From a virus, in IMG/VR virus record IMGVR_UViG_3300030406_002001, positions 1 through 64,000 of that record: a stretch of DNA of 64,000 nucleotides; one strand, written 5' to 3'. Below, one piece after another: positions 1-64,000 of this stretch (its first letter is position 1; the number at the start of each line of letters is the position of its first letter). Under the pieces are notes generated by a model. It saw only the letters and a program-made list of their open reading frames with translations. It searched no databases and had not been told where the DNA came from. The translations under genes were made by a program, and so were the position numbers.

Positions 1-536
1 TTTACCAAACCACCTGCACTTCCAAAAGACAAGTTACCACTACCATCTGTTATCAATGCTTTATTTGCACTCGGTGCTGTGCTTGGTAAGGTTAATGTAT
101 AGCTTTGTGATGCTGAGTGAGGTGGTCCTTTAATCTTTACTCCATGAGTATTTTGTTCGCAGTTTAATTGTATTGCACCAGAATCTGAACCTGCTCCTTT
201 TGATATAAGTGTAGGTGCAGTAGCTAACTTGTCATTCGTTACAGTATTATCACTTGGTGTTCCTATATTAAGAACATCACCTAATACCATAATAAAATTT
301 ATTACATCACCTGTTACCAAATTACTTGCAAAAGTAATTGTATGATTTGAAATTGTAAAAGAACTGCCGGGATTTTGAATTATACCATTAAGACTAACAA
401 GCATATGATTTGCACTTGCAGGACTAAAATTAACAGAGTCTTTCTGCATAGTATAGGCAGCTTGACCATTAACAACAGAAATGGTGTCTAGCTTTATAAA
501 GTTTCCTGTTATAGGTTGTTGTCCAATATAAGGCAT
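1..536 (-). CDS. Tail fibre/adhesin protein, C-terminus cut by window edge
   Basis: The gene begins at an ATG at 534-536 and is still open at base 1, so only about 178 N-terminal residues are visible. The protein starts MPYIGQQPITGNFIKLDTIS, a short leader shared with other fibre proteins here, followed by a beta-rich region rich in Ser, Thr and Asn and no membrane segment. The first 110 or so residues are almost identical to the gene at 34640-35701; nearer the window edge the two diverge. Its stop-proximal neighbour overlaps it in a TAATG arrangement, as in the second cassette. A receptor-binding or tail-tip role is inferred from position at the end of a late module and from this mosaic pattern. 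Confidence 0.75.
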   Translation of the reverse strand, partial: MPYIGQQPITGNFIKLDTISVVNGQAAYTMQKDSVNFSPASANHMLVSLNGIIQNPGSSFTISNHTITFASNLVTGDVINFIMVLGDVLNIGTPSDNTVTNDKLATAPTLISKGAGSDSGAIQLNCEQNTHGVKIKGPPHSASQSYTLTLPSTAPSANKALITDGSGNLSFGSAGGLV

Positions 537-1027
537 TAGTTTGCTATCTCCAACCAAATAACTGTACTTGGTGAACCTGCTTGACTTGCATTATTACTTC
601 TATTAATTCGTAATGTGCCAGATGAAACTTTACCTTGACATTTAACAGGTATTGCTGAACCATCAGTATTTGTAATACTTGTAAATATTGTTGAAGGCAT
701 ATATGATAGATTGTTCAATGCATCTATACTATAAAATATATGTGTAGCTATAGGAGTAGTGCCTGTTGTTGATAAAAAATCTGTACCATCAACAACCCAT
801 TTATAATAACAATATGCTGTATTTACACTATCAAAATTTGCAACACCAGATATAAGAACAATACTACTTGAACTTGATGGTGTAAAACTACCAAAATCTA
901 AATCGTCCGCATAGGAAGTTGCACTTGACCTTTCAGAGTTCGCTGTAATCTGTGTAATTTTATGGCTCAATAGTTTACCTCCAACACCTGTTGATAACGA
1001 ACTTGTTAATATTTTACTTAATGGCAT
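536..1027 (-). CDS. Small adhesin-cassette protein (163 aa)
   Basis: I recognise no named family. The sequence is Ser/Thr-rich with alternating hydrophobic residues, as expected for an all-beta virion protein, and has no signal peptide or membrane segment. It is closely similar along its whole length to the gene at 35701-36204, including MPLSKIL at the start and a WLE motif at the end. It overlaps the next fibre gene by one base (TAATG) and lies in the minus-strand tail fibre operon. A tail-fibre tip or accessory protein is likely, by context only. Confidence 0.7.
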   Translation of the reverse strand: MPLSKILTSSLSTGVGGKLLSHKITQITANSERSSATSYADDLDFGSFTPSSSSSIVLISGVANFDSVNTAYCYYKWVVDGTDFLSTTGTTPIATHIFYSIDALNNLSYMPSTIFTSITNTDGSAIPVKCQGKVSSGTLRINRSNNASQAGSPSTVIWLEIAN

Positions 1028-1030
1028 AAT

Positions 1031-1348
1031 CTATTCCTTTGGGTATTTCTTTTTAATTGCAGTAACATTTTCTTGCCACTTAGTTAATCCATTTTCTGTT
1101 ATATATTCAATTTGTTTTGCAAGGCTACCATATTCTGCCACTCTATTTTGTATTGCTGTTGCTTCTTTTACCAGTTTATCTGCATCAGAGTCTTTAGCTT
1201 TGAGTTGGTCATTTGTTGGTTTAGCTTTATCTTTTATATTCCATTCAGCAATATATGCACCTTTACCATCATCTCGTACAATTACATCTGTTGTAAAATC
1301 AACAGCTTTACCCATATATGTTTCTATTTGTTTTGTTAAACTTGCCAT
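1031..1348 (-). CDS. Putative tail-fibre chaperone-like protein (105 aa)
   Basis: A short, charged, mainly helical protein ending in a W..N..AIKKKYPKE tail. Its counterpart in the second cassette (36208-36483) ends KDKYPKE and carries a YPSIPDQLDDIYHNG motif typical of phage tail-fibre assembly/XkdW-like proteins. The two copies share the C-terminus and position but little of the N-terminus, as if a chaperone were matched to each adhesin. Function is inferred from context and the partner copy. Confidence 0.6.
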   Translation of the reverse strand: MASLTKQIETYMGKAVDFTTDVIVRDDGKGAYIAEWNIKDKAKPTNDQLKAKDSDADKLVKEATAIQNRVAEYGSLAKQIEYITENGLTKWQENVTAIKKKYPKE

Positions 1349-1350
1349 AT

Positions 1351-2196
1351 CTAATCGCCTATTTTAAATCCTGTAAACCAACTTCTGTGTTTTTTAGGTG
1401 TTGTTGTTTCATCTGACGCATAAATATATGGTGTACTTGATGTAATATTAACATAACAATAAACTTCAATATAATCATTAACTGCCAAATCAAGTACCAC
1501 AGTATTTAATACACCATCAAAATATCCCAAACCATCACCAGTACCAGAAGGTGCTTCATGTTTATTTGATACTCTTATATGCTCAGAACCATTTTTATAA
1601 AACGCAACTGATACATTATGTTGAAGATAATTGTTTGCCGCATTTTTAACCATACAATGAGCAGATAAAAAATATCTTCCTGCTTCTGCACAAGTAAACC
1701 TATAATTACTTGCTTTATCATAAACACTACTCGCATCAAACTCTTCTTCATCAAATTGTACTTTTACAAATGTTTGGTCAGTTAAGTTATGTTGTGTTTT
1801 TACATAAGCAAAAAAAGATGGGGAATTTGGTGTTGTTGATATAGTTGCAAAACTATTATCACCTCGTAAAAATGTACTACTACTTTTTGTACCTGTAGCT
1901 GACAACTGTGCCATTCCTACACTACCACTTGCAGGATTTATTGTTCCTACCGCTCTACCTATATAGACACAATACATATCATCTGTACCTGCTGTTGCTT
2001 CTGTTAATGTTAGAGCAGTACCACTAGCAGAATATGCTGTAGTAGGTTCTTGTCTTACATTGTTAATAAATAAAGCGATATCATTAGCATTAGTTACTGA
2101 TTGTGATAAAGTATAGTTTTGAGTTGCACTTACAGAAAAATCTTGTTTTACTAATGATTGAAATGATGTTGCAGGTTGTTGACCTATATATGGCAT
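1351..2196 (-). CDS. Tail fibre/adhesin with conserved N-terminus and variable C-terminus
   Basis: 281 aa. Residues 1 to about 120 (MPYIGQQPATSFQSLVKQDF onward, ending near FLRGDNSFA) are almost identical to the gene at 36483-37319, while the remaining 160 residues are unrelated. Here the C-terminal half has a TNF/C1q-like feel (YVKTQHN, FDEEEFD, AGRYFLSAHC), a trimeric receptor-binding fold used by phages; that assignment is tentative. The conserved N-terminus probably docks to the tail and the C-terminus binds the host. Confidence 0.75.
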   Translation of the reverse strand: MPYIGQQPATSFQSLVKQDFSVSATQNYTLSQSVTNANDIALFINNVRQEPTTAYSASGTALTLTEATAGTDDMYCVYIGRAVGTINPASGSVGMAQLSATGTKSSSTFLRGDNSFATISTTPNSPSFFAYVKTQHNLTDQTFVKVQFDEEEFDASSVYDKASNYRFTCAEAGRYFLSAHCMVKNAANNYLQHNVSVAFYKNGSEHIRVSNKHEAPSGTGDGLGYFDGVLNTVVLDLAVNDYIEVYCYVNITSSTPYIYASDETTTPKKHRSWFTGFKIGD

Positions 2197-2205
2197 TTAT
2201 ATCTC

Positions 2206-2532
2206 CTATGAACTAATTGCATCTACTGCACTTACCCAAACATCTAAACTACTTGCTGTATCACTTATTACTTTTAATGCATCTCCAGATTGTACTACAA
2301 ATTTTGCTCCACCATCTAATACCTGCAAAGCTGATCCAGCAGGTATAGACACATCTTTTACAAGACTAATATCATTTGATCCGTCATTAATGTAACAATG
2401 AACTGTTATTGCACTTGTATGAACATTTGCCAAACTAATGCCTACAATAGTATCAAAACTATTTGCTGTAAATATTGTAGTAGCACCTGTTCCTACTGCA
2501 TTACTTGTATATCTTCTAAAATCTTGTGCCAT
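2206..2532 (-). CDS. Small beta-rich tail protein (108 aa)
   Basis: 108 aa, beta-rich, with no membrane segment. It aligns in position and pattern with 37319-37663: both have a TTIFTA/DTIYTVPSNT-like start, a PAGSALQVLDGG or PANTTLEVFGGQ middle, and a C-terminus with short hydrophobic strands. Such proteins commonly sit beside T7-like fibre genes in marine podoviruses and may be a tail-tip adaptor. I do not know a specific function. Confidence 0.6.
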   Translation of the reverse strand: MAQDFRRYTSNAVGTGATTIFTANSFDTIVGISLANVHTSAITVHCYINDGSNDISLVKDVSIPAGSALQVLDGGAKFVVQSGDALKVISDTASSLDVWVSAVDAISS

Positions 2533-2552
2533 AATATATCCTTTCTTTTATA

Positions 2553-3644
2553 TCATAAGGCAATGGACATAGCAATACTAAACCCATTTGTTGCAAATGA
2601 TGAAGTATCTACTAATGTAATTTCTACAAATGAACTACCATTATAAACTCTTAATCTATTTGTACTTGTATTAAAATATAAATCACCTGTTGTTAAAGCA
2701 TCTCCATCATTGTCTACTGTAGGATCACTTGATTTAGCTCCTAAATATGTATCATCAAAATTATCAACACTTGCTGCTGCTGCTGCTGCCGAAGCTGCTG
2801 CTGCTGTAGCAGAATTAGATGCATTTGTTGCAGATGTAGATGCATTACTTGCTTGTGTACTTGCTGTACTTGCATGACCACTAGCTGTACTTGCACTACT
2901 AGCTGCTGCTGATGCACTTGTAGATGCTTCACCTGCTTTTGTCGTTGCAGTAGCTGCTGATGTTGTAGCACTAGCTGCATCTACTAATAAATCCCATTTT
3001 GCACTATCTGCATTACTTGTTAATGGTTGTGAGCCACTAGATGTATGTGCAGTATTTGCCATAAATATATTATTGGTAGATGTATCTTTTACAATATCCC
3101 TAACACCATATGCTCTACTAGCTGCCCAATCACCTTTATTAGAACCAATTTCATTTGTTACTGCTAGTTCTCCGGCACTATCAAACCCTAATACCTTACC
3201 ACCTCTATCTGTTACACTCTCTGTAAAATCTGTAGAAGTAAAAGTATTTGTTGGAGAGTATTTTATACATCTATTTATTTGTTCTTGTAATTCTTGTGCT
3301 ATAGATAAATTTTTATCAAATGCTCCTTCAACACTATCTGCTGTAAATGGATCATTTTCAACTAAATCTAATGTTTGTGTTTGTGTGGTATCTCTTCTAA
3401 GTACAACTGTTTCTGTACCTGTAGGTATATTACCAGATGTAAACACTACATTACCTCCACTAGCAGTACCTGCACCTGTTACAGTATAATGTGTAGTCAA
3501 TGATTTTTCAGTTTCCAAACCTGTTGATGATCTAATAATTACCTGTATGTCTGCATCTGCTGCTATCTTAAATGTATAAGCAAATGTATCTTGTGAACCA
3601 TCACCAGAATAACTGTTTTTTATTGTTGTAGTTGTTATAGTCAT
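2553..3644 (-). CDS. T7 gp17-like tail fibre protein
   Basis: 363 aa. The N-terminal 130 or so residues carry the pattern of the T7 gp17 N-terminal domain (YSGDGSQDTFAYTFKI, VLRRDT, AFDKNLSIAQELQEQINRCI), which attaches the fibre to the tail. Residues about 225-295 are a low-complexity Ala/Ser/Thr helix-forming spacer (repeats such as ASTSASAAASS), followed by a short GDLYFNTSTNRLRVYNGSSF beta module often seen at fibre ends. It follows the internal virion protein genes, the usual place for gp17. The module B counterpart is 37677-38510, related only in the N-terminal fold. Confidence 0.85.
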   Translation of the reverse strand: MTITTTTIKNSYSGDGSQDTFAYTFKIAADADIQVIIRSSTGLETEKSLTTHYTVTGAGTASGGNVVFTSGNIPTGTETVVLRRDTTQTQTLDLVENDPFTADSVEGAFDKNLSIAQELQEQINRCIKYSPTNTFTSTDFTESVTDRGGKVLGFDSAGELAVTNEIGSNKGDWAASRAYGVRDIVKDTSTNNIFMANTAHTSSGSQPLTSNADSAKWDLLVDAASATTSAATATTKAGEASTSASAAASSASTASGHASTASTQASNASTSATNASNSATAAAASAAAAAASVDNFDDTYLGAKSSDPTVDNDGDALTTGDLYFNTSTNRLRVYNGSSFVEITLVDTSSFATNGFSIAMSIAL

Positions 3645-3668
3645 TTTATATATCCTAACATAATTACA

Positions 3669-6600
3669 TTATTTTTTTAAGTCTTTAAAATTTTTTTCAT
3701 AATTTGCAACTAACTCGTTTACCTGCTTTGCATGATTTAATATTGCATTTAATGTTGTATCCAATAAATTATCTATTTGTTGTGGAGTAAAATCACTTTT
3801 ACCAACTTCTCTTGTTTGTAATAAAGTGTAAATATTATATTTTTCTTGCATTTTTTCTGTATGTTTATTCATTATTTGCACAAGTCCAACTTCAAAATCT
3901 CCTACTATTTCTCTAGCTTTTTGTATTTGACCTTTTTCTATTAATTCTGTAACTTGCCCTTGATATTTTCTAATTTTTTTATAGTTTTGCCAATACTTTG
4001 ATATTGGCTCTGCACTTAATTTAGTTCTTCTAAAAAAATAATTAGCTACAGGTGCTTTTGTTAGTTTATCAAATGTTTCATCAGACCAAGGTTTTATATA
4101 ATCTTTTGCATCTTTATCAAATTTTTTAATTATAGCATCTAATCCTGCAATAACATCTCTTCCTAATGTAGCTGTATAAGCATTTATATAATGATCTATT
4201 ATTACAGGACTGCCATAATTTCTTCCTTCTATTCCTATAAAATTACCTATTCCTCTAATACCATCACCTATTTTTTTTGCAACTTCACTCGTATATGGTG
4301 TTTCTTGAAATTCTGCTAATTTATTTTCATTACTTCTAGATACAATAGGTCTTTTTGTGTACATATTTCTATTAAAACCTTCTTCAAAATATGGCATAAA
4401 CATATCTGTAACAGGAATAAAATTACTAAAATAACTCCAAGCACCTTCAAACCATGTTTTTTCCATTTTATTAACATAATCTTTATCAGTTTTATAAGCA
4501 TAATTAAGCATTTTTTCTGGTAGTGTTGCAAATAACCATCCTAATTCCCAAGGTTTTCTAACTGTAAAATATTGTCCTTTTTCTTCATTTACTACAAAAA
4601 CCCAAAAATTTAATTTTTCCCAATCAGAAGTTCCATTTTTATATGTTTCACTATCTCTATTAGCATACCAATTAATTATTGTTGGTACTGTCATTCCAAA
4701 AAAACCTGTCATTGCAAACCTTGTTATTTGTTTAGGATTAGTTGCAGTTCGTGCTAATTTATATAAACCTTGAATACCTGCATTTAAAAAAGCATTAGTT
4801 CTTGATGCAGCTTCCATTCTCGCACCTCGTCTTGAAAAATCTATAATATCTCTACCTTCATAAGTTGATAATGTATCTATTTGTCTTTTTGTTAATCTTT
4901 GATTAACAGGTAGATTTTGATTATCTTTTAATAATTTATTTTTTAATTGTTTACTTGCAACAATTCTTGGAGCTTGTTCTGTTAAAACTGTTGGTCTTTG
5001 TGCTAATCTACCAACTCTTGCTCCTGCTCTTTTCATTACTTCAAATGGATATAATAAACTTGATATAGGACTTTTTGAATCAAGAGTATGTATATAATCT
5101 CTTTTTTCTATTTGTTCTCTCATTTTATTTGCACTAAATAATTGTCTATCAGCATCTACAAATGTAGATTGAGCTTGTCCAGATTCTACAAATTCTCTTT
5201 CTATTTTTTTATTTTTTACTTGCCATACAATACCTTTTAATCCATCTACTACAGGTATATAAGTAGTTTTACTAATAAATGGCATTGTTAATTCTTGTGC
5301 TAAAAAGTTTGCTAATGTAAATTTAGGATGAACAGTAATACCAAATCTTTTTACCTGTGTTACAATTTCTGCTGTTTTAAATACTGCACCATCTACATCT
5401 ATTAATCCATATAATTTGTTAAACTGTTTATCTCTTTTTATTGCTTGTACCAATACTTCTGATCCTAAATCCCATATCTCTCTTTTACCATTTCTCATAA
5501 TAGATATTTGTGTATTTGTTAAATCTTTTGGTTTTGCTCTAAATATAGATAAATTATTTATTTGATCATCTGATAAGTTTTTAAGTTGAGGAAATGCTGT
5601 TTCTATTTCTTTTCTTGTAGCTGTTGTTTCTTGTATAGCAGGTTTTACTTTTTCTATAAATTTAAAAGCATCTGGATTTTTACCTTTAGCTGACTCTATT
5701 GTTTTTATAAAATCAACCATTGCAACATTTCTTTCAGCTAACATTATCATTTGCATAGTGTTTTTCATTGTCATTTCAATAGGATCAATAACACTTACTT
5801 TTTCAAGATATTCTTTTTTAGTTGCATTGTATTGTTTTTGTAATTGATTTTTTACTACTTCATCTGTTTCTGTATTTATTTTTTCTTCTAAATCTCTAAC
5901 TTTTTTTTGTATTCTTTCCACACCTACTATTTGTTTGATAGGCATACCACCTTGTGATTTATTACCTTTAAATTTTGGATCAAACAATTTATAAAATGGT
6001 ACAAAATCTTTATTTGCACTTATAATACTTTCTTTTAGTTTTTTAGTAATTACTCCTGCATCTTCCATATAATCTAAAATTCTTTGAGTAAACTCATCAT
6101 ATTCTTTAGATATATTTTCATATTCATCACCATATTTTGTTACAATATTTCTTGCTCTTTCTATAGGCATACCTGTTACAATACCTCTACCCTCAAGTTC
6201 TATAACTCTTTTTGATATTTTATAAATATTAAACTCATCATATTTTGATCTACCATTTTTATACTCCAATGGTTTTAATATTTCATATAACGATTTACCT
6301 GTAATTTTATCTGCATCAAAAAAACTTTTTGTTCCACTACCATTAATTGCTGACATAGCTTTACCAACAACACCTGCTAAATTAGTTATCTGTTCATATA
6401 CAAAATTCTTTTCTGCACCTTCTTTTTCAGCTAATTTTTCTATTTTTTTTACAGGAAATATACTATCTATACGATCAAACATAAATTTATCTAATTTATT
6501 AAACACTCCATCTGCTTCTTTTTCTATTTTTACTTTTTCCGGTTTATAAAACTCAGACATTGCTTTCATATCTTCATCTTCATAATTTCTAGGAGGTACA

Positions 6601-7916
6601 ACTTCTGCATCATTACTACCTATTTTTTCTCCAAATTCTCTAAGTTCCTCTCTTATTTCATTTTGCCTTCTACTTACTCTAACTTGATTATCTGGCACAT
6701 CTGTTTCCCTTAAATTAATTTCTTCTATCTGATTATCTATATCTCTTGATCTGTTTTCTATGTCTCTAAAAGTTTCTATTGTATTAGCTCTAAAAGATTC
6801 TTCTTCTAATTCCTGTTTTTGTTTTTCTAAATCTTCTTTTTTTGGACCTTTACCATTTTCTATATCTTTTAAAACTTTAAATTCATCAACTAATTTTTTT
6901 ATTTTGGTTGTCGCATTTTCTGTAAGTGTTTTATTAAAAACATTTATATTAATACTTGCAGCTTCTTGACCACTAACAGGGTCTTTTAATACATCTTGAA
7001 CTACATCAGAAAGACTTTCTTTTGTATTAACCATTCTATTTACTGCCATTTGTGTAGCTTTAGCACCTATTCCTAATGTACCTACTAATAAAAGATTATC
7101 TTGTAATTGTTGTTTTGAAGGTAATGTCAATTTACCTTTTTCTACACTTTCAATAGCTGTTCCCATACCTGTCATACCTAAATATGTTCCTGCAAGTGTA
7201 GTCATAAAATTTTTGCTTAATCCAATTTTGTGTAAAGCAGCAGGTCCTGCTATAGTTCCTGCTAACATTGCACCACCTTTTAATCCTTCACCTACTCCAT
7301 GATCTACAAACAAATCCCACCATTGTTTAAATCCTGTAACTTTGCCAGATTTTAAAGATTGAAAATATGTTTCTTTTATTGAATCATTTACAAACCCACC
7401 TGCAAATGCAGCTTTTGTAAATTGTCTTGTTAATAAATATGGTGCAGCTCCAATCAATCCTGTTGGTGTATCTCCTACAATAGTACCTATAGACCTAACT
7501 AATCTTTCTATTGCACCATCATCTGTTAATTGATTGCCAAATGCTTTTCTCCAATCATATCCTTGCTCACCTTTTGTATGATATTGTAACATTAAATTAG
7601 TTGTACTTTGCCCAAAACCTTCTCTAAAATAATCATATATTTGACTTTCTTCACCTACTGCCCAAGTTTTTACTTTATTTGCTTTATTTCTAATTACATT
7701 AATTCTTTCTTTCCAATAATTTCTAATTGGATTCATAACATCATCTTCTTCTTTTAATTTTTGTGTTCTATAAATTCCTAATTCTTTAGCAATCTGGTCA
7801 TCATCAAAACCACCTTGCCTAAGAATATTTATTGATTTTCTTTTATGCTCGTTTATTTGTTCTTCAGATGCACCACCTTGTTTAAGTAAATTTATATGTT
7901 CTTCTATTGCTCCCAT
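3669..7916 (-). CDS. Large internal virion protein, T7 gp16-like position
   Basis: 1415 aa, by far the longest gene of late A. Position (last core gene before the fibre, after gp14- and gp15-like genes) and size match T7 gp16, the ejected internal core protein that spans the cell envelope during DNA entry. I do not see a lysozyme-type transglycosylase motif at the N-terminus, unlike T7. The middle (about residues 330-480) is highly charged and helical, probably coiled coil, and there are amphipathic hydrophobic stretches around 160-260. The counterpart at 38507-42319 is 1270 aa with little obvious sequence identity. Confidence 0.75.
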   Translation of the reverse strand: MGAIEEHINLLKQGGASEEQINEHKRKSINILRQGGFDDDQIAKELGIYRTQKLKEEDDVMNPIRNYWKERINVIRNKANKVKTWAVGEESQIYDYFREGFGQSTTNLMLQYHTKGEQGYDWRKAFGNQLTDDGAIERLVRSIGTIVGDTPTGLIGAAPYLLTRQFTKAAFAGGFVNDSIKETYFQSLKSGKVTGFKQWWDLFVDHGVGEGLKGGAMLAGTIAGPAALHKIGLSKNFMTTLAGTYLGMTGMGTAIESVEKGKLTLPSKQQLQDNLLLVGTLGIGAKATQMAVNRMVNTKESLSDVVQDVLKDPVSGQEAASININVFNKTLTENATTKIKKLVDEFKVLKDIENGKGPKKEDLEKQKQELEEESFRANTIETFRDIENRSRDIDNQIEEINLRETDVPDNQVRVSRRQNEIREELREFGEKIGSNDAEVVPPRNYEDEDMKAMSEFYKPEKVKIEKEADGVFNKLDKFMFDRIDSIFPVKKIEKLAEKEGAEKNFVYEQITNLAGVVGKAMSAINGSGTKSFFDADKITGKSLYEILKPLEYKNGRSKYDEFNIYKISKRVIELEGRGIVTGMPIERARNIVTKYGDEYENISKEYDEFTQRILDYMEDAGVITKKLKESIISANKDFVPFYKLFDPKFKGNKSQGGMPIKQIVGVERIQKKVRDLEEKINTETDEVVKNQLQKQYNATKKEYLEKVSVIDPIEMTMKNTMQMIMLAERNVAMVDFIKTIESAKGKNPDAFKFIEKVKPAIQETTATRKEIETAFPQLKNLSDDQINNLSIFRAKPKDLTNTQISIMRNGKREIWDLGSEVLVQAIKRDKQFNKLYGLIDVDGAVFKTAEIVTQVKRFGITVHPKFTLANFLAQELTMPFISKTTYIPVVDGLKGIVWQVKNKKIEREFVESGQAQSTFVDADRQLFSANKMREQIEKRDYIHTLDSKSPISSLLYPFEVMKRAGARVGRLAQRPTVLTEQAPRIVASKQLKNKLLKDNQNLPVNQRLTKRQIDTLSTYEGRDIIDFSRRGARMEAASRTNAFLNAGIQGLYKLARTATNPKQITRFAMTGFFGMTVPTIINWYANRDSETYKNGTSDWEKLNFWVFVVNEEKGQYFTVRKPWELGWLFATLPEKMLNYAYKTDKDYVNKMEKTWFEGAWSYFSNFIPVTDMFMPYFEEGFNRNMYTKRPIVSRSNENKLAEFQETPYTSEVAKKIGDGIRGIGNFIGIEGRNYGSPVIIDHYINAYTATLGRDVIAGLDAIIKKFDKDAKDYIKPWSDETFDKLTKAPVANYFFRRTKLSAEPISKYWQNYKKIRKYQGQVTELIEKGQIQKAREIVGDFEVGLVQIMNKHTEKMQEKYNIYTLLQTREVGKSDFTPQQIDNLLDTTLNAILNHAKQVNELVANYEKNFKDLKK

Positions 7917-7924: not shown

Positions 7925-9517
7925 TTACTTTCCTTGAAGTCTTCTTAATATAAAATCAGTAACTTTTTCACCTTCTTTAATTTGAGTTTCATCTGGCAAC
8001 TTTATTTGTCCTCCCTCAAAACCTTGTACTGCTTCTTTTAAAACCTCATCTGAAGGCAAAATAAAAGGTTCTACAAATTTTTGTAAAAATACAGGACTTT
8101 CAGTATTAACAAATACATCTTCAAGTGTATAATTTTGACCTGTCTTTGGATTTATTGTAGCTAATTTATCTCTTGCAATTCTTTTTAAATCTTGTTCTGA
8201 TTGATATAACCTTACTTGTGCTGCATCTCCAACTGCATATGTACCTCCTTTTATTTGTTCTTCAACACTTGTAAAAAACCTTTTAAATGCAGTTTGAAAT
8301 GCTTTTTCTTCTTTTCCTGCAAATTGTTGTATAATTGCTTTTTGCTCTAAATAAAATGGTCTTCTAATTTCTCTATCTCTATATCTTTCTGATAAACTTT
8401 TTGGTTTTTCTTCTCCTTTTACTGTAAAAGGTGTATCTGTGTCTTTTACAATACTTGTTGTATCAATTAATATTTCTATTTCTCTTTGTTTATTAAAATC
8501 TGGTTCACCTTCAATATCTTGTAATCTTGCCCTTTTATTTTGTATTTCTGCATCTACTTGATTTTTTGCTTGTGTTCCTCTTACTCTATCTCTAATATCT
8601 TTTAATTCTGTTACTGAAATATCATCTAAATCTTTTGTATCTATTTCATTAAAAACTTTTTCATTAAATAATTCATCTGACCTTTGTTTAAATTGCACTT
8701 CTTGTAATAAATTATCATTTATTTCACTCTCTAGTCTTTCGTATTGTTTTCTATCAATTTTTTCTCCACCAATATTATTTTTTTTTAATCTATCCATACT
8801 TGCTTGATAGTCAATAGTACCATCTGCTCGTCTAACTAAAATTATAGAATTATAAAACTCGTTAATAACTTCTTGTCTATCAGCTTCATAAGCAGCTAAT
8901 GACTTTCCTGCACTTATTGCTGATTGATTGTCTTTATAAAATTTACTATTCTCTCCTGTTATACTTTCTAATAAACCAAATATAGCTTTATCTTCATAGT
9001 TTTGCTTACCTACTTTTATCTGCATATTTTTTATCTCTAATTCTTTTTGTACTGTTGCTCTGTTAACAGTTTCAGCTAATATTTGATTACCTCTTAATTT
9101 GTTTACTTCACTCATAAAAGATAATTTTGCTTTTTCTTTGTAATACAATCCTTTTTTTGCTGCCATAGGATCATTTTTGTAATAATTTCCAAAATCTTTA
9201 TCTAAAAAAACTCCGAAATCTGATATTATTTTATCTGTTTCTTGCTGTGAATATACTGTATTTTGTTCTTTTAATTTTTGTAATTGCTCTTCTGCTTGTC
9301 CTAAAAAATATACTTCACTATTAGTAACCTTATTATTAATTCTTTCAGTTTCTAATTTTGTTTCTTGCTCAATAATGTTACCTAAAAAATCACTAGCAAT
9401 TTTACCTGCTTGTGCGAACTGCCTACCTCTAAATTCTTGTCCTCTAAGCAAATTTGTTCCACGTGAAACATTTTGAGCTTGTATTTGTCCTCTAACAGGT
9501 CTAATTCTTATTGCCAT
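7925..9517 (-). CDS. Internal virion protein, T7 gp15-like position
   Basis: 530 aa, strongly helical and charged, with long Glu/Lys/Gln-rich stretches and no membrane segment. It lies between a gp14-like and a gp16-like gene, so it is most likely the middle internal-core/ejection protein. The stop codon overlaps the neighbouring gene's start region by one base, indicating tight coupling. Function is from order and composition; sequence alone is not diagnostic. Confidence 0.7.
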   Translation of the reverse strand: MAIRIRPVRGQIQAQNVSRGTNLLRGQEFRGRQFAQAGKIASDFLGNIIEQETKLETERINNKVTNSEVYFLGQAEEQLQKLKEQNTVYSQQETDKIISDFGVFLDKDFGNYYKNDPMAAKKGLYYKEKAKLSFMSEVNKLRGNQILAETVNRATVQKELEIKNMQIKVGKQNYEDKAIFGLLESITGENSKFYKDNQSAISAGKSLAAYEADRQEVINEFYNSIILVRRADGTIDYQASMDRLKKNNIGGEKIDRKQYERLESEINDNLLQEVQFKQRSDELFNEKVFNEIDTKDLDDISVTELKDIRDRVRGTQAKNQVDAEIQNKRARLQDIEGEPDFNKQREIEILIDTTSIVKDTDTPFTVKGEEKPKSLSERYRDREIRRPFYLEQKAIIQQFAGKEEKAFQTAFKRFFTSVEEQIKGGTYAVGDAAQVRLYQSEQDLKRIARDKLATINPKTGQNYTLEDVFVNTESPVFLQKFVEPFILPSDEVLKEAVQGFEGGQIKLPDETQIKEGEKVTDFILRRLQGK

Positions 9518-10071
9518 TATCTTATACCTCTAGCTCTTAAAAATGCATTTCCAGATAATTGAGTCATTGGGTCTAACTGTCCTAATGTAGTTGTTGGACT
9601 TGATAAAAAACTGCCAGAAAATTGTCCTGAATAATATGCTGCTGTACCTAATTGAGCTACACCTTGTATCAAACTTGTTCTACGTTTAAAAGATTCTGCT
9701 GCTAATGCTCCGGCTAATTCTATATCATTCTCTAATAAACTTTGTTCTAATTCTTTTTCTGCCCAAAATCTAGCATCATCTGCTTCTTCAATAGTATTCT
9801 GCATAACTAATAATGGTGAACCTGTAAATCTTTTACCACTTGCACCGATTGCTGCTCTTTTTTCTGACAACATAGTTTTTTCTTGTCTATTAATTTTTAT
9901 TTGTTGTTGCTTTCTTTGCAATTCAATTCTTTGATCTTCGTATGCTTTTGCTGTTCTTAAATTTTTTGCTTGTATTCGTGAATTTCTTATAGAAGCATAA
10001 GTGCCTAATATAGTTTGTAAACCACTTGCTACAGCAAAAAAAGTTCCAAAAGGTAATCCTATTCCAAACAT
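9517..10071 (-). CDS. Internal virion protein, T7 gp14-like
   Basis: 184 aa. An N-terminal hydrophobic helix (GTFFAVASGLQTILGTYASI) is followed by a long Gln/Arg/Lys-rich helix (about residues 30-75) and Ala-rich helices. This hydrophobic-helix-plus-coiled-coil layout, seen again at 44707-45228, is typical of the small ejection protein of T7-like phages, which inserts in the outer membrane. It sits directly downstream of the gp12-like gene, as expected. Confidence 0.75.
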   Translation of the reverse strand: MFGIGLPFGTFFAVASGLQTILGTYASIRNSRIQAKNLRTAKAYEDQRIELQRKQQQIKINRQEKTMLSEKRAAIGASGKRFTGSPLLVMQNTIEEADDARFWAEKELEQSLLENDIELAGALAAESFKRRTSLIQGVAQLGTAAYYSGQFSGSFLSSPTTTLGQLDPMTQLSGNAFLRARGIR

Positions 10072-10074
10072 AAT

Positions 10075-12567: not shown

Positions 12568-13148
12568 TAAGGTGCTCTAAAATCAGTAAACACAGTTGAT
12601 ATAATACTATCAGTTGTTCCCTCTGTGCTATCAAGACTTCTTGCTTCTGATAACTTTCTTTCAAATAACCTTTGCATTTGTGCTTGTAATGTTGTGCTAT
12701 TTGTTACAGGATATGCTAAATCTACTGCAAGTTTTGCAGTAAGTGTATCAACAAACATAGAATCAAATAAACTTGGATCAGTAACTCTTGCAATATAAGT
12801 TATTTTTGCTTCCCCTTCATCTGTAAGTAATACCCTGCCTTGACCTGCTAAATTTTCTATTTTAAATTCAAAATCTTCAAACTCCATTTTTAATACTCGT
12901 AAACAAAATGGATCAGTTGGCAATGCAAATTGATTAGCATATTCAAATGCAGGTGCTGTTGATAACTTTGCTAAATTTGCTCTGTTAATAGCAAAATTCC
13001 AAGTATGTGATCTTAATACTGCATCTCTTGATGGTGCATAAAATGCATTACATAATCTTGCTCTTTCACTATCTTCTGTTAATGATGCGATAGGACTATC
13101 GCCCAACCTTCGTAGAGCATTTGAACATATTGATACTTCTGTTGCCAT
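12567..13148 (-). CDS. Tail tubular protein A (T7 gp11-like adaptor)
   Basis: 193 aa. The N-terminus (ICSNALRRLGDSPIASLTED, then APSRDAVLRSHTWNFAINRA) is the typical gp11-like adaptor/gatekeeper signature; the module B copy at 47863-48480 has the same layout. It would bridge portal and nozzle. It is the first gene after the internal terminator at 13163-13190 and overlaps the gp12-like gene by one base. Confidence 0.9.
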   Translation of the reverse strand: MATEVSICSNALRRLGDSPIASLTEDSERARLCNAFYAPSRDAVLRSHTWNFAINRANLAKLSTAPAFEYANQFALPTDPFCLRVLKMEFEDFEFKIENLAGQGRVLLTDEGEAKITYIARVTDPSLFDSMFVDTLTAKLAVDLAYPVTNSTTLQAQMQRLFERKLSEARSLDSTEGTTDSIISTVFTDFRAP

Positions 13149-13162
13149 AATACTCCTAATGT

Positions 13163-13190
13163 AACAAAAAGGGGGTCTTTTGCAACCCCC
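13163..13190 (-). terminator. Rho-independent terminator after decoration gene
   Basis: On the minus strand a GGGGGT/ACCCCC stem with an 8-nt loop is followed by TTTTTG. It falls between the decoration protein (13209-13754) and the tail genes. A terminator of the same type occupies the same place in module B (48485-48509), so partial termination probably sets a high capsid-to-tail ratio. Confidence 0.85.
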
Positions 13191-13208
13191 AAATTGTAGT
13201 CTATTGTT

Positions 13209-13754: not shown

Positions 13755-13764
13755 GATTTACCTC

Positions 13765-14628: not shown

Positions 14629-14768
14629 TACAGTTCTCCTTAATAAAATTAATATAATAATTTATGCAGTTTTTGTCCTAAAAAAGGGAAACCTCGTTTA
14701 TAGTCGTTAGACTTTATATACTGTTATCCGTAAGGGCAGTACACACAAAAATATTATATCATACTTTT
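14629..14768 (-). promoter_or_regulatory. Capsid gene leader with extended -10 promoter candidate
   Basis: This 140-base gap separates scaffold and capsid. Read on the minus strand it has TGATATAAT (14753-14761), an extended -10 box, with no good -35. A TACTG/CAGTA hairpin lies downstream and a ribosome-binding AAGGAG just before the capsid start. A separate capsid promoter would suit the high demand for coat protein. Confidence 0.55.
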
Positions 14769-17689: not shown

Positions 17690-17690
17690 A

Positions 17691-17900: not shown

Positions 17901-17909
17901 TAGACTTTC

Positions 17910-18529: not shown

Positions 18530-18552
18530 AAGTAAATCCTTTCATATTAATA

Positions 18553-52967: not shown

Positions 52968-53225
52968 CTATACGCCAAGTGTATCCCTTGATTGCAAATC
53001 TGCAGTAACCAAGAATCCTTGACCTCCACGTCGACCTGTCAGTAATGACCTTCTGCCACGTTGCCCTGCCACTTGTGCCACTCTATCTTGGAACTGTTCG
53101 TCCTTTAACTTACGTCTTTCAGCGAGTTCTTCTCTACGTGCCTGTGCTCTCTGACGGCGCAATGACTCATCAGGTGGCGGCGGTGGTGGTGGTGGTGGTG
53201 GTCTTGAGCCTCCTCCTACACACAT
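52968..53225 (-). CDS. Polyproline small protein with SLLTG/TLG C-terminus
   Basis: 85 aa. A run of ten prolines near the start (GGGSRPPPPPPP), an Arg-rich helix, then GRRSLLTGRRGGQGFL and DTLGV at the end. It corresponds to 18332-18529 of module A in position and in the proline-run plus terminal TLG layout. Starts 1 base from the TerL stop. Confidence 0.65.
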   Translation of the reverse strand: MCVGGGSRPPPPPPPPPPDESLRRQRAQARREELAERRKLKDEQFQDRVAQVAGQRGRRSLLTGRRGGQGFLVTADLQSRDTLGV

Positions 53226-54730
53226 TATCTTCTCCTTTCGTATATGCTTTTAGGTTTTAAATTAAAAACATTAAAATTTCTTTTTGCTATTATAGGTTTA
53301 CTAGATTTATTACCCATTGTCAAAGTTCTTCCTTCGCCTGCTCCAAGTAATAAATATTGAAGTGCATCATGAATATGTGAAAATCTATTTTTATTTGGCT
53401 TTTCATCATAACGTTCTCCACTTACTTGGAGTCTACGATAATGATAACCACCTGTAAATCCTTTAATAAGATTTGTACAACTTTTATCTACAAGTAAACC
53501 ACTTTCACCATCAACCATTCTATTAAGTGTAGCATTTACAGATTCTAAACGTAAACTTACATCATTGCTAGGTGCGGGTCTTGCCATAATGCCTAGTCCT
53601 TTTAATATTTGAAATGGTGTATTTTCATCTGTTTGAACCCTATGGTCACCTGCAGGGTCACCAAATATTTGAAATGGGCGTGGTAAATACTTTGTCATAC
53701 TCATTTTCATAAGTTCTGCAAAACGAACAATACCCATATCTTCTGCAACAAGTTCTTCGCATACAACCCACCGATTTCTAATTTTTTGTGCAAAGACACA
53801 GGCAGGAGTTAATCCAAAGTCAATCCCAATATAAATAGGTAATTGTGGTGCAAGGGCTAGTTCTCCTTTAGCTACATGAACATCAGTTCTAAATGATTCA
53901 TATACAGGTTTACCATCTTCTATTTGTCCTAATTTATTTAAAACATATACATCAATCCAAGATTTGGTCTTACCACGTATAATATTTTGGTAATAATTTT
54001 TTGTAAGATTTTTACTATTTTCTTGTTTTGGATTTTCTTTATAACTTTCTATTTCTTTTTCATTATTACGTTGTTCTAATAACGCAGGTGGTTGATTCCA
54101 AAACTTCCAATTATCTGGAGTTATTAACATTTTTGCTTCTTGTTTACTTATATAATCTGGAATAATTGATTCACCAGACATGATACTCCACCAGTGGTCT
54201 GTATCTGGAGGGTTGGTATCGCAAATAACACCATACCATGTTGGGCCACCATCACGCATAGATGGAAAACGACCAACACGCATAGAACAAGCATCAACAA
54301 TTGACTTAGGAATCTCTCTAGCTTCATTTATCCAAACTCCTGTTAGTTCTAAAGATAATAACTTTTTAACATCTTCTGGTCTATCTAAAGCTAAAAATAT
54401 AACTTCAAGGTCTATATCACCTTTTTGTATCTTATGTGTATAAGGCACACTCCATGTAAATGTACCCCAATCTTCTTCGGGAAACCAATCTAACCATGTT
54501 TTTATAGTTGTTGTTTTAAGTTGTGGGTTTGTATTTCTTATGACTGCCCATCTAGATTTACGTATACCATCTTCTGATTTTGCTTGAGTTATTGCTGTTT
54601 TAATTATTTCTATACAACAGGCAACAGATTTACCCGAGCCAACAGGCCCACGTATACCTCTAAAAAAACTTTTATTTTTAAGAAACTCTTTAAGAGTATC
54701 ACCATCTGGCTTATAGTTTAGTGATGCCAT
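53225..54730 (-). CDS. terL: Terminase large subunit (module B)
   Basis: 501 aa. P-loop GPVGSGKS at residues 28-35, VWINEARE as Walker B, and a nuclease domain starting PIYIGIDFGLTPACVF with later FGDPAGD. Different from the module A TerL in P-loop type, length and most sequence, so the two modules likely package by different rules. Overlaps the upstream gene by 20 bases. Confidence 0.95.
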   Translation of the reverse strand: MASLNYKPDGDTLKEFLKNKSFFRGIRGPVGSGKSVACCIEIIKTAITQAKSEDGIRKSRWAVIRNTNPQLKTTTIKTWLDWFPEEDWGTFTWSVPYTHKIQKGDIDLEVIFLALDRPEDVKKLLSLELTGVWINEAREIPKSIVDACSMRVGRFPSMRDGGPTWYGVICDTNPPDTDHWWSIMSGESIIPDYISKQEAKMLITPDNWKFWNQPPALLEQRNNEKEIESYKENPKQENSKNLTKNYYQNIIRGKTKSWIDVYVLNKLGQIEDGKPVYESFRTDVHVAKGELALAPQLPIYIGIDFGLTPACVFAQKIRNRWVVCEELVAEDMGIVRFAELMKMSMTKYLPRPFQIFGDPAGDHRVQTDENTPFQILKGLGIMARPAPSNDVSLRLESVNATLNRMVDGESGLLVDKSCTNLIKGFTGGYHYRRLQVSGERYDEKPNKNRFSHIHDALQYLLLGAGEGRTLTMGNKSSKPIIAKRNFNVFNLKPKSIYERRR

Positions 54731-55685: not shown

Positions 55686-56993
55686 TTACTTTTTTTTGTC
55701 ATATTTATCTAATATTTTTTTTAGTTGTTGTCCATATACTCTAACAAGTCCCTGACTTGCTGTGTTTGATATTATTTTATTTTCTGTTTGTTTTATAATG
55801 TCTTCTCTTAATTTATTTGCTTTTGCCCTATCTGCATTAGTTAAATTAATTTTACCTTTTGAGCCAATAAGACTTCTAAACTTTTCTGTTATTGCTGTAC
55901 GTAATTGTTTTGCATCTACTTCTCCTTTAACAGCCTTATCATATGTTTTATCTTTTTCTGTTTTAGGATTTTTAGAATCAACAAATTTATTTAATCTTTT
56001 TTGTGCTTGTTCTCTTTTTACTCGTCTACTGCTTTTTTGTGGTGGTTGTGACCTTGCTCCTGTTTTTAATTTTGTTGGTTGTATTTTTTTACCAACTTTC
56101 TCAACTGTTTCTCCAACTTTTCTTCGAACAACAAGTTCACCTCTTTTAAACATATCAACAGCTTTACCCAATCGTTTTTTTACTGCACCACTTTCTAATC
56201 TAGTTTTACGTAATTTTTTACCTAATACTTTACGTTTACCTTCTGATTCTGCTAATTTCTCTGCATCTGTTTTAGATTGTGTTTTTTTAGTAGTTGTTTT
56301 TTTAGTAGTTGTTTTTTCTGTGGTTTTAGCTTTTGGTCTACCACGTGCATCTCGTGGTTGTTTCTTTGCCAAGTCTGCCTGTGGAAATCTTTTCTTGTAT
56401 GCTTTAGTAAATCGTGCAAGTCCTTTTTTAAATGCCGATTTGCCTTTTTTCATAAGTGCTTTACCTACAGGTGTTTTTGCAAAAAGTTGTGCTCCTCTAC
56501 CTAATCCACGAATAAATACTGGAGTTAAAGCTAAACCTGCTACAGTTCCAACTGTTTTTAATACTTTTTTATTACGTGCATCACGTCTTGCTTTTTCTTC
56601 TGCTGTTAATGGTTTTCTGTCTGCTCTACGTCTAAGTCTTTGTTTTTTGTTGCCTTGTTGACGGACAGGTTCTGCTTTTTGTTTTGACTCTTCTGCTTTC
56701 TCTCTATTTAATCTATTTATTAATTCAGTATCATCAACTCCTGTTTGTTTTTTTTCAACTACCTTTTTTTCTTTTACAGGTGATATATTTTCTTTTTGAA
56801 CAGGTATTGGCTTTGGAACTGTTGTTGATTCACCATAACCTTGTGCTTTAGTTCCTGTGCCTTGTTCTTGTCTTTCATTATCAGATTCACCACGACGTGT
56901 AGCAAACTCACCCATTCTAGCAATAGCTGTATAGTTTGTAGGATTTAAACGTAGAAGACGTCTACGTTTTCTTTCTCTTTCTGCTTTATCCAC
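55686..56993 (-). CDS. Large highly basic protein (435 aa)
   Basis: Starts with GTG at 56993. Lys/Arg/Thr/Ala-rich over its length, with histone-tail-like tracts (KAKTTEKTTTKKTTTKKTQS) and one short hydrophobic stretch (GTVAGLALTPVFIRGLG, about residues 140-158). No enzyme motif. Its place among terminase-side late genes suggests a virion protein that binds DNA or perhaps a membrane. I do not recognise the family. Confidence 0.6.
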   Translation of the reverse strand: MDKAERERKRRRLLRLNPTNYTAIARMGEFATRRGESDNERQEQGTGTKAQGYGESTTVPKPIPVQKENISPVKEKKVVEKKQTGVDDTELINRLNREKAEESKQKAEPVRQQGNKKQRLRRRADRKPLTAEEKARRDARNKKVLKTVGTVAGLALTPVFIRGLGRGAQLFAKTPVGKALMKKGKSAFKKGLARFTKAYKKRFPQADLAKKQPRDARGRPKAKTTEKTTTKKTTTKKTQSKTDAEKLAESEGKRKVLGKKLRKTRLESGAVKKRLGKAVDMFKRGELVVRRKVGETVEKVGKKIQPTKLKTGARSQPPQKSSRRVKREQAQKRLNKFVDSKNPKTEKDKTYDKAVKGEVDAKQLRTAITEKFRSLIGSKGKINLTNADRAKANKLREDIIKQTENKIISNTASQGLVRVYGQQLKKILDKYDKKK

Positions 56994-57319: not shown

Positions 57320-57622
57320 TTACTTTCCTTTCTTTTTTTTATTTTTTAATCGTATGGACATACGCTTTGCTTTGGCTCTTGCATCTGCCTTGCTCGACGC
57401 ACCCCATGCACGTAATGATAACAAAAGTCGTGTTGGTTTTCCATCTTTATATTCTGGACCGGGCATATTACCCATTCTTGCTAGAAAAGATGCACGTCTT
57501 GGATTATCTCCACGTTTGACAGGAGGACGTAATGTACCTCCTTTATAAGATGCACGACCTTTGGCATTTAATCCTCCCTTAGGATTCTTACCTGCCTTTC
57601 TTTGCCATGCGGGTGTTTTCAT
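57320..57622 (-). CDS. DUF6321-like basic protein (100 aa)
   Basis: GGLNAKGRASYKGGTLRPPV, NPRRASFLARMGNMPGPEYK and GKPTRLLLSLRAWGASSKAD match the family at 33222-33494. Arg codons are CGT here but mostly AGA in the other copy, so they are diverged copies and not a recent duplication. Role unknown. Confidence 0.75.
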   Translation of the reverse strand: MKTPAWQRKAGKNPKGGLNAKGRASYKGGTLRPPVKRGDNPRRASFLARMGNMPGPEYKDGKPTRLLLSLRAWGASSKADARAKAKRMSIRLKNKKKKGK

Positions 57623-57912
57623 TTACTTTTTAATTTTTTAGCTTTTTTCTTAGCTAATCTTTTTTTTCTAGCTGTTTCTATTTTATTTTCTGCTTTATCT
57701 TTTTCTAAAAGACGACGTACCGGAGTTATAAATCTATCTCTTGAGCGTTTTGGCTTTGATGCTCTTTCTCCAGATGTTTCTGGATTAATAGTTACCATAT
57801 ATCCACCAAGTGTTTTATGTTGTTTTGCACCCGTAAAAGGATTTACATTCTTTGATGTAACCATACTACCAAATTTTCTAACAGACTTTTTCTGAAACTT
57901 TTTATTTGTCAT
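57619..57912 (-). CDS. Basic late protein (97 aa)
   Basis: MTNKKFQKKSVRKFGSMVTS, then NPFTGAKQHKTLGGYMVTIN and a Lys-rich tail. Overlaps the DUF6321-like gene by 4 bases. Soluble and strongly basic, without membrane segments. Unknown role. Confidence 0.6.
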   Translation of the reverse strand: MTNKKFQKKSVRKFGSMVTSKNVNPFTGAKQHKTLGGYMVTINPETSGERASKPKRSRDRFITPVRRLLEKDKAENKIETARKKRLAKKKAKKLKSK

Positions 57913-58053: not shown

Positions 58054-58416
58054 TTACGTCAGGTCTATATTGATAGAGAAATCACCTTTAACTAGGTGCT
58101 GATGCTTGTCAGGTGCTTTAAATCCTGCCCTGTCAAGTATATCTTTACTGGCTTCCAACTGTACGTACTCTGATTTAGCATCAGTACAGAGTCTAAGTAA
58201 CGTGCTACTTGCCTTCGTCGCACTCAGTCCTAACGTTCTTTGTATCTCTTGATTCATATATTGCTGTACCTTTGGAGTTCGTAGCATCTTACTTGCACTA
58301 ACACGGGCACTAGTGCCCTTGTATCCTGCGACTTTGGACGCCTTGGTTATCGTACAACCTGTGGCTACGAGTGTATCCACTAACAATTTCGCCTTTGCTG
58401 ATATTTCGTTGCTCAT
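58054..58416 (-). CDS. terS: Putative terminase small subunit (module B)
   Basis: 120 aa. KAKLLVDTLVATGCTITKAS, then KVAGYKGTSARVSASKMLRT forms a helix-turn-helix of small terminase type (AAxxAGY..), followed by KVQQYMNQEI and helices. First gene of late B with a strong promoter upstream. Within the gene a perfect 14-bp palindrome GGGCACTAGTGCCC occurs at 58305-58318. Confidence 0.75.
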   Translation of the reverse strand: MSNEISAKAKLLVDTLVATGCTITKASKVAGYKGTSARVSASKMLRTPKVQQYMNQEIQRTLGLSATKASSTLLRLCTDAKSEYVQLEASKDILDRAGFKAPDKHQHLVKGDFSINIDLT

Positions 58417-62103: not shown

Positions 62104-62500
62104 ACAAAGAACAGATGCTATCAGTAATGCGGCCTCATTTTATTTAGATGATGTCTTACACAAAATCAAAGCATGGTACAAGGTAATGCAACCTGCTTCA
62201 ACTAAAACAGTTGGTATGGTGCTAGAAACTATTGCATCAACATTCAGTTGCAATGTACCTAATGAACTTGGACTAAGTGTTTATATAAAAATACTAAGTC
62301 GTTTCCCAGAATTTGTACTGACATATAATACAGAAAAAATTATTGCCAGTGCAAAATGGCGAAGGCTTCCATTACCTAAAGAATTTCTTGATGTAATGGA
62401 GCCAGATTTTGAACGCCACAAGCTGTGGCTACAAAACTTTCACCAAACCTATTTGTCGTTTGCACAATGGCGACAAAAACGGTATAATACTACAATATAA
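61883..62500 (+). CDS. Early-B protein overlapping the HTH gene (205 aa)
   Basis: ATG 61883 with GGAGAG seven bases upstream; the first 221 bases overlap 61609-62103 out of frame. It is helical (MTITKNEKSLLTITNQLEQL; LSVYIKILSRFPEFVLTYNT; IIASAKWRRLPLPKEFLDVM). Similar late segments (KWRRLPxPKxF) occur in phage replisome-associated proteins, but I cannot name the family. Internal ATG codons (about 62000 and 62075) would reduce the overlap. Confidence 0.6.
   Translation: MTITKNEKSLLTITNQLEQLKAIGTLPSETGSDEHTSLPMHEKIRKATWSSVPRAFKKDVNESLMLLTYDLRHKQRTDAISNAASFYLDDVLHKIKAWYKVMQPASTKTVGMVLETIASTFSCNVPNELGLSVYIKILSRFPEFVLTYNTEKIIASAKWRRLPLPKEFLDVMEPDFERHKLWLQNFHQTYLSFAQWRQKRYNTTI
62460..62488 (+). 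promoter_or_regulatory. Promoter for recombination genes
   Basis: TTGCAC (62460-62465), 17-base spacer, TATAAT (62483-62488), inside the end of the previous gene. The leader ATATAATAACAATAAAAGGA resembles that at 59582. Confidence 0.75.
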
Positions 62501-62523
62501 TAACAATAAAAGGAGTTAATCTC

Positions 62524-63324
62524 ATGCATAAAAGAAAACACACTATTGGTGGTAGTGATGCCACTAGAATTATGAAAGGCGATTGGTACAATCTATACAA
62601 TGAAATCAAAGGTTTTCAAAAACCAGAGGATTTGGAATGGAAAGTATCAGTATGTATTGGTCAAGCCACCGAAGCACTTAATCGTAAATTTTTTGAACAT
62701 GAAAGTGGTATGCAAGTATCTACATATCGTTGGTCTGATGCACAGTTTCCAGACAGAGTAGATTGGCGTCATGCAAGTTATGATGGCATTTGCCTAACCT
62801 CTACACAAAATTGGGTGCCACTTGAATGTAAACATACTTACCATACTAATAATATACAAAAAGTTGTTGAAACATACTATGCACAACTACATCATTATAT
62901 GCTTGTGTCTGGTATTGACTTTATTTATTTATCTGTATTCTTTGGTAACTTTGAATATCAATATTGCAAAGTCAGTAAAGATAAAAAATATATGAATGAA
63001 CTTATCAAACGAACTGATAAGTTCAAACAAATGTTAGATACAGATACTATCCCATCACGTGACTTAGAAGAACACAAACATATCAAATCAATTGTACTAG
63101 ATGACATGATTTCAATTGACTATGACAAAAAGAAAAACAATCAGTTTATGTCACTAGCTACAGAATGGTGTTCAACAAAAGATACACATGATTTACATAA
63201 AGAATTAGGTAAACAATTAAAAGATATAATACCTAGTAATTGTAGGTTTGCCTCTGGTTCGGGCCTCCAAATAGCCCGAAACAAGGCAAACCATTTGTCA
63301 ATTCGTAAAATGAAAGGAGCATAA
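62524..63324 (+). CDS. YqaJ-type viral exonuclease
   Basis: 266 aa. TIGGSDATRIMKGDWYNLYN is the YqaJ N-terminal signature, and WRHASYDGICLTSTQNWVPL-ECKHTYH supplies the D...ExK-like catalytic motif; VVETYYAQLHHYMLVSGIDF follows as in the family. It is a lambda-exonuclease-like 5'-3' exonuclease paired with the annealing protein next door. Confidence 0.88.
   Translation: MHKRKHTIGGSDATRIMKGDWYNLYNEIKGFQKPEDLEWKVSVCIGQATEALNRKFFEHESGMQVSTYRWSDAQFPDRVDWRHASYDGICLTSTQNWVPLECKHTYHTNNIQKVVETYYAQLHHYMLVSGIDFIYLSVFFGNFEYQYCKVSKDKKYMNELIKRTDKFKQMLDTDTIPSRDLEEHKHIKSIVLDDMISIDYDKKKNNQFMSLATEWCSTKDTHDLHKELGKQLKDIIPSNCRFASGSGLQIARNKANHLSIRKMKGA
63245..63292. repeat. Nested hairpin in exonuclease gene
   Basis: GGTTTGCC / GGCAAACC (63245-63252 with 63285-63292) enclosing TTCGGGC / GCCCGAA (63258-63264 with 63274-63280). 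GC-rich against an AT-rich background, near the 3' end of the coding region. Confidence 0.65.
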
Positions 63325-63825
63325 ATGACAAATACAATCAAAACTAATATGGATATTTGGAAAACTTTAGGTAGAACTAACCCCAAATATACCAAACCAT
63401 TTCAAAAGTTTGGTGGTAAAACACTTACAACTATTGACCCAATGTATCAGATTATGATGATGACCGACTTGTTTGGCCCGGTAGGTCAAGGTTGGTCATA
63501 TGACGTAAACTATACCTACACAGACAAATGTGTGTTTGCAGAAGTATCTATCAGATATTCTGTAGCCACAAAACTTGATAAACAATGGTACAAATATGGC
63601 CCAGTATCTTCTGTACAAGCCTTGTATAAAAAGAATGGTGGGCTTGATGATGAAGCACCAAAGAAAGCAATGACAGATGCTATGACAAAAGCATTTAGTC
63701 ACCTTGGAATGTCAGCTGATGTCTTTCTTGGGTTATTTGATAGCAGTAAATACATTGAAAAAACAAGAGAACACTTTGCAGTAATTGATGCAGAAAGGAG
63801 AGTATCTAATGGCAAGTCTGAATGA
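63325..63825 (+). CDS. Rad52/Sak-like single-strand annealing protein
   Basis: 166 aa. MYQIMMMTDLFGPVGQGWSY, then RYSVATKLDKQWYKYGPVSS, DDEAPKKAMTDAMTKAFSHL and GMSADVFLGLFDSSKY match phage single-strand annealing proteins of the Rad52/Sak (and ERF-like) group. It follows the exonuclease directly, forming a recombination pair. Overlaps the SSB start. Confidence 0.8.
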   Translation: MTNTIKTNMDIWKTLGRTNPKYTKPFQKFGGKTLTTIDPMYQIMMMTDLFGPVGQGWSYDVNYTYTDKCVFAEVSIRYSVATKLDKQWYKYGPVSSVQALYKKNGGLDDEAPKKAMTDAMTKAFSHLGMSADVFLGLFDSSKYIEKTREHFAVIDAERRVSNGKSE

Positions 63826-64000
63826 AGTACAACTTATCGGTAATACAGGTATTGACCCCGATATAAAACAAACATCTAATGGTGGCAAGTATGCAATCTT
63901 TACTTTTGCAACTACAGATAAAAGAAAAGATGCACCAGATACAACACAATGGCATAAAGTTGTGTGTTGGGATGAACGATTAGCTGATACAATTGAACGC
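63809..64000 (+). CDS. ssb: Single-stranded DNA-binding protein, partial
   Basis: 64 residues visible before the window ends. MASLNEVQLIGNTGIDPDIK, then GGKYAIFTFATTDKRKD and TTQWHKVVCWDERLADTIE are the bacterial SSB OB-fold signatures. AAAGGAG upstream. Third member of the recombination set. Confidence 0.92.
   Translation, partial: MASLNEVQLIGNTGIDPDIKQTSNGGKYAIFTFATTDKRKDAPDTTQWHKVVCWDERLADTIER

Follow-up and report, generated by a model that had tools for sequence, protein, structure and literature searches.

Two podovirus late gene sets in a single virus record are most likely the product of a chimeric contig of two pelagiphage genomes

The IMG/VR virus record IMGVR_UViG_3300030406_002001 (67,849 bp) harbors two podovirus late gene sets, both on the minus strand, as judged from its open reading frames (ORFs) and their matches to PHROGs profiles. 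Read literally, it would point to a phage that has two complete sets of structural genes. Does such a phage exist, or were two genomes joined? The window analysed here comprises the first 64,000 bases of the record (1-64,000), with a further 3,849 bases lying beyond it. Based on sequence comparisons, we regard the record, with high probability, as a chimeric metagenome contig derived from two separate pelagiphage genomes, here called A (~35.1 kb) and B (33.1 kb); the double late module, although real in the record, is most likely not present in any virion. This reading is carried by direct observations, namely an 88-bp exact repeat, the closure of B as seen in a closely related contig, A-like and B-like relatives that are themselves closed, and the single portal genes of relatives.

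Two distantly related halves

The two halves and their late genes are as follows (PHROGs, a phage-only library, was scanned with 50 of the 110 ORFs, and Pfam with 10):

1-34620, genome A, near complete, relative of HTVC010P-type pelagiphages, collinear with the IMG/VR contig G001
34621-64000, continuing to 67849 outside the window, genome B, Hodr-like pelagiphage (portal nearest Hodr)
21223-21645, minus strand, TerS-like, A (phrog_51)
58054-58416, minus strand, TerS-like, B (phrog_2538, phrog_51)
19269-20681, minus strand, TerL, A (phrog_2)
53225-54730, minus strand, TerL, B (phrog_2)
15792-17456, minus strand, portal (head-tail adaptor), A (phrog_332)
51274-52890, minus strand, portal (head-tail adaptor), B (phrog_332)
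13765-14628, minus strand, major capsid, A (phrog_3437)
48773-49597, minus strand, major capsid, B (phrog_3437, PF19821)
12567-13148, minus strand, gp11-like tail protein, A (phrog_394)
47863-48480, minus strand, gp11-like tail protein, B (phrog_394)
10075-12567, minus strand, gp12-like tail protein, A (phrog_376)
45228-47861, minus strand, gp12-like tail protein, B (phrog_376)

We take phrog_394 and phrog_376 to correspond to the T7 proteins gp11 and gp12. A preliminary description, made from the sequence alone, had proposed two late modules on the same strand with only distantly similar copies and TerLs that are hardly alike. The pairing of TerS-like, TerL, portal, capsid, gp11-like and gp12-like genes bears this out, as does the amino acid identity between halves (29% for the portal, 31% for the capsid and 24% for gp12), with no match between the two TerLs at an E-value of 0.01. 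At the DNA level, A and B are nearly unrelated and their similarity is mainly confined to the tail-fibre locus, a feature that the preliminary description had not noted. Four pairs of stretches in this locus are 85-92% identical:

61-1059 with 35226-36236
1846-2197 with 36969-37320
33628-34038 with 66823-67236
34566-34708 with 67707-67849

Two weaker pairs (72% and 67%) start at 30,677 and 32,813.

The join and both record ends lie in one fibre gene

The features of the join are:

34621-34708, 88-bp exact repeat, with its second copy at 67762-67849 (the last 88 bases of the record, outside the window)
34640-35722, minus strand, fibre gene g061, at the join (phrog_18673, tail fiber), its C-terminal half B-type as judged by the contig L214 described below
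3-557, minus strand, fibre gene g001 (5' part), truncated where the record begins, 81% amino acid identity to g061
34621-35141, proposed shared segment for passage from A to B (C-terminal half of the fibre gene plus gene boundary)

Owing to the repeat at the record end, 34621-67761 would form a circle of 33,141 bp. The first base of the record aligns to 35142, within the same fibre gene, and thus both record ends and the join fall in a single gene, another point beyond the preliminary description. Placing base 1 straight after 35141 restores an in-frame fibre ORF of 345 amino acids, an outcome expected by luck one time in three.

Closure of B was found in an independent 4,844-bp contig from a close B relative, IMGVR_UViG_3300030389_000847 (L214), the only contig in IMG/VR that matched a 33-base pattern taken from the repeat (the record itself may be left out of such results). 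It runs from window bases 37840-36187 (98.4%) through a fibre gene to record bases 67277-66216 (95.6%), thus showing closure without any A core gene. It contains the 88-bp repeat exactly, is 100% identical over 34621-34900 and 94-100% identical per 50-base window from there onward to the join with record base 1, and also crosses the 35141/base 1 join, with 94% identity in the 50-base window spanning it.

Since base 1 is in frame after 35141 and L214 runs through that join, we predict that A closes as a circle of 35,141 bp. A closed relative exists in G001 (IMGVR_UViG_3300038530_000456, 34,605 bp), which is collinear with A and whose first 98 bases recur at its end (1-2 bases short of it). Its five longest matches to A are 95.4-97.9% identical (10054-20686 at 97.8%, 26274-29153 at 97.9%, 29441-31924, 1907-3661 at 97.4%, and 32307-34006 at 96.5%); other matching stretches are mostly at 82-94% (short pieces at 79-98%), some intervals are unmatched, and in the long virion genes at 3669-10071 amino acid identity drops to 28-43%. 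The check on whether either half closes, as proposed in the preliminary description, is thus answered by the repeat and L214 for B and by this relative for A.

Both halves resemble pelagiphages

Cultured phages related to A belong to what we take to be an HTVC010P-type group (HTVC010P, HTVC028P, Skadi, and EXVC032P Baldr). In a search with the A capsid, Baldr was nearest (78%), and the other 21 Pelagibacter phage records listed were at 56-63%, with HTVC010P itself at 58%. Baldr shares 21 gene matches with A in largely the same order. A has capsid and core genes homologous to those of HTVC010P-type phages and a size of ~35 kb, as in G001, but none of the listed isolates is near-identical to it. 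Judging from these relatives, A probably infects SAR11. For B, the portal search placed EXVC031P Hodr nearest (77.6% over 93% of the query), with TerL and capsid at 80% and 83% in a comparison with Hodr alone. Matches to 25 B genes are spread across the Hodr genome, a circle of 34,238 bp versus 33,141 bp for B; the fibre cassette has diverged, and the long proteins encoded at 38507-42319 and 42309-44717 are only 38% and 23% identical. The genomes of Baldr (39,463 bp) and Hodr (34,238 bp) are both listed as circular. In their GenBank records, OQ414635 and OQ414636 (L198 and L199), the locus tags carry each other's names, and the contig names C6N2_1062_C8_A and _B suggest one shared culture experiment. 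A literature search for Hodr and Baldr found no paper naming EXVC031P or EXVC032P.

Single portals and shared fibre DNA among relatives

Among 23 relatives hand-picked from fetched loci, 17 had a portal match, one each, as against two in this record; the remaining six, fetched through related fibres, had none. End overlaps of 77-157 bp were present in nine of the 20 IMG/VR records of this panel (32,491-37,445 bp), both A-type (G001, G008, G015) and B-type (G013, G014, G018, G019, G023, G024). The overlaps of G001 and G008 end 1-2 bases before the record end, and that of G015 consists of two exact runs parted by one base. In wider TerL searches, the longest contig was 37,445 bp among the best 80 of 527 A-TerL loci and the best 80 of at least 600 B-TerL loci (the record itself may again be left out). 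Eleven sample identifiers occurred in both lists (of 72 for A and 77 for B), the window's own sample not being known. Longer contigs with related fibres were also found (48,806, 43,542, and 42,167 bp): the A and B portals had no match in the two longest, and G026, the third, had a single one.

We also compared A-type with B-type DNA in 19 panel genomes (8 A-type and 11 B-type, isolates included; this record, G022, G025, and G026 left out). Segments of at least 80% identity and at least 120 bp numbered 12, in five of the 88 pairs (2 A-type and 4 B-type genomes), and the genes that they match place all of them in or beside the fibre locus. From these alignments, the fibre-locus DNA common to the two distant lineages appears to be real. 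Such sharing fits earlier reports of fibre variability, in which fibre genes are variable islands in HTVC010P relatives (PMC3909814), and module transfer between pelagiphage families has been reported before (PMC9599517).

How a chimeric contig could arise

If A and B were present in one sample and shared an almost identical piece of the tail-fibre gene, from 34,621 to about 35,141 (exact sharing within the record is 88 bp, and we infer the remainder), an assembler could have travelled round A, entered the shared piece and left it into B, then circled B once and halted on reaching the shared piece again. We propose that the last 88 bases repeat 34,621-34,708 because the assembler halted on re-entering this piece, and that base 1 lies where it does because the shared piece ends there. 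The preliminary description had regarded a join of two genomes as the simplest reading, somewhere within 32.5-38.5 kb; our analysis favors the same view and places the switch in the fibre segment starting at 34,621.

It is documented that viruses living side by side can yield chimeric contigs when regions of their genomes are similar (PMC5610896, PMC10563150), and for phage contigs repeat regions are named as one cause (PMC10563150). Chimeras of this kind are similar to several genomes and to none over at least 95% of their length (PMC5610896), and the present record behaves in this manner, its A half being matched by G001 and its B half by G013, G014, and Hodr, relatives that stand in for the parents. 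A switch in sequence common to both parents is seen in the 88-bp repeat at the join and the record end, and the existence of each parent alone in the relatives (the closed G001 for A, L214 for B). The virome chimeras described in PMC5610896 likewise match two genome types, neither over more than 95% of the length, with the switch in a similar region; unlike them, both genomes are nearly whole here and the product resembles a double phage.

Several observations weigh against a chimeric contig or the path proposed for it. Despite the B flanks of L214, the N-terminal half of its fibre gene (2221-3296) matches record bases 1-545 at 96%, and this contig is either mosaic inside a single gene or a mis-join in its own right; as a consequence, the fibre pieces are not firmly assignable to A or B. 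Conversely, L220, an A-flanked contig, matches 1-703 and 32307-34038 but differs in the C-terminal half of the fibre. The record start has no exact overlap, and another exact run, of 89 bp (316-404 and 35481-35569), occurs elsewhere in the fibre locus. End overlaps were absent from 11 of the 20 panel records, and the length of the repeat, 88 bp, matches none of the panel overlaps (77, 98, 99, 123, and 157 bp). Finally, a real 68-kb circle, with A and B alternating with two copies of the repeat, would yield the same assembly graph. Few relatives were found for genes g060 and g110 (4 and 3 loci), with no near-identical A just before the repeat. An attempt to use relatives to assign the fibre locus piece by piece to A or B failed because the pieces were mosaic. 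The idea that the 88-bp overlap reflects the k-mer of the assembler was dropped as evidence, as it equals no panel overlap length.

Composite phage, tandem prophages, or a repeated genome

The alternative that deserves most attention is a real cointegrate, in which A and B circles recombined via the shared fibre segment during co-infection into a 68-kb molecule, be it a concatemer intermediate or a double phage that persists. Several observations speak for it: fibre-locus DNA is shared between the lineages in other genomes, several of them closed, the isolates nearest to A and B are named as if from the same culture experiment, and both halves encode recombination-type genes (in A an exonuclease and a Holliday junction resolvase-like gene; in B a RecE-like gene, another exonuclease, SSB, and a RusA-like gene). 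A second fused record, G026 (IMGVR_UViG_3300032087_002049; L306-L308; 42,167 bp), even holds both junctions of such a structure. Its first 2,424 bases are 94% identical to G025, a third phage type, its middle is a B-type genome (long matches of 92-93% to G014, and one shorter stretch of 84%), and from 37,599 it returns to G025-type sequence (94.6%). Both switch intervals, in the fibre region, contain a 75-bp exact repeat (2376-2450 and 36232-36306). An assembly-graph loop where fibre sequence is shared would account for this record and G026 alike, and the pattern would be no different if one phage circle had truly inserted into another. However, each of the 17 portal-bearing relatives has a single portal, phages closely related to A or to B close on their own, and the second junction, from B back to A, is absent from the record. 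Moreover, the closed relatives and circular isolates span 32.5-39.5 kb, so that 68 kb would probably exceed the capacity of the capsid. On balance, a cointegrate seems improbable to us.

We give hardly any credence to the remaining two explanations. Two related phage genomes lying head to tail on one contig could be prophages integrated in tandem, an option raised in the preliminary description, yet the record has no match to PF00589 (tyrosine integrase) or PF00239 (resolvase), while the controls were positive in 14/14 and 10/14 genomes, respectively; this agrees with the absence of an integrase noted earlier, and the option is disfavored. In addition, no tRNA was found in the window, and a single phage fibre gene holds the join as well as the two ends of the record. 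Neither an integrase nor bacterial flanks were encountered, although bacterial DNA was not searched for directly. As for a single phage genome assembled twice, the record length of about two genomes is what this artefact would produce, but the sequence itself refutes it: the halves differ (see the capsid and portal identities above), their DNA likeness is mainly that of the fibre locus, and the same sequence is not repeated. CheckV identified 290 IMG/VR contigs of more than twice the expected length as the same genome repeated, probably artefacts (PMC8116208). The present record resembles them in its roughly twofold length, but they repeat one genome and it joins two different ones. Because the joined genomes differ, a k-mer repeat test would probably not flag it.

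More likely than a double phage, this record thus represents a trap in virus catalogues, in which tail-fibre DNA common to distant ocean phage lineages allows an assembler to fuse whole genomes. Checks for repeated genomes would probably miss such fusions, and counts of portal or TerL genes would reveal them. Were the cointegrate real instead, G026 would add a further example, with a different partner, and make the fibre locus a hot spot for whole-genome fusion.

Other genes of the two halves

Further assignments of the preliminary description held in part. It had named a scaffold gene in both halves:

50180-50965, putative scaffold, B, by position only, no family match
14769-15599, putative scaffold, A, matching protease and unknown families, its Baldr relative annotated as a capsid assembly protein

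Labels of gp14-16 type found no support in the three long ORFs scanned, as 7925-9517 (A) and 42309-44717 (B) matched no PHROGs family and 3669-7916 (A) matched only PHROGs families of unknown function, but a shorter ORF in B (49638-50180) matches an internal virion protein family. Each late set was said to be followed by its own plus-strand early module; that of A is interrupted by a minus-strand block at 24.4-29 kb with helicase, primase, and radical SAM genes.

In B, the DNA of a 435-amino acid ORF without PHROGs or Pfam matches (55686-56993) was found in the contig G009 and was unmatched in G010 and G011, and ~286 bp at 57619-57905 have no counterpart in these three B contigs. Missing from four A-type contigs (G001, G002, G004, and G006), the radical SAM gene of A (24733-25743; phrog_9298, with PF04055 barely above the cut-off) is a clean insertion between 24735 and 25720.

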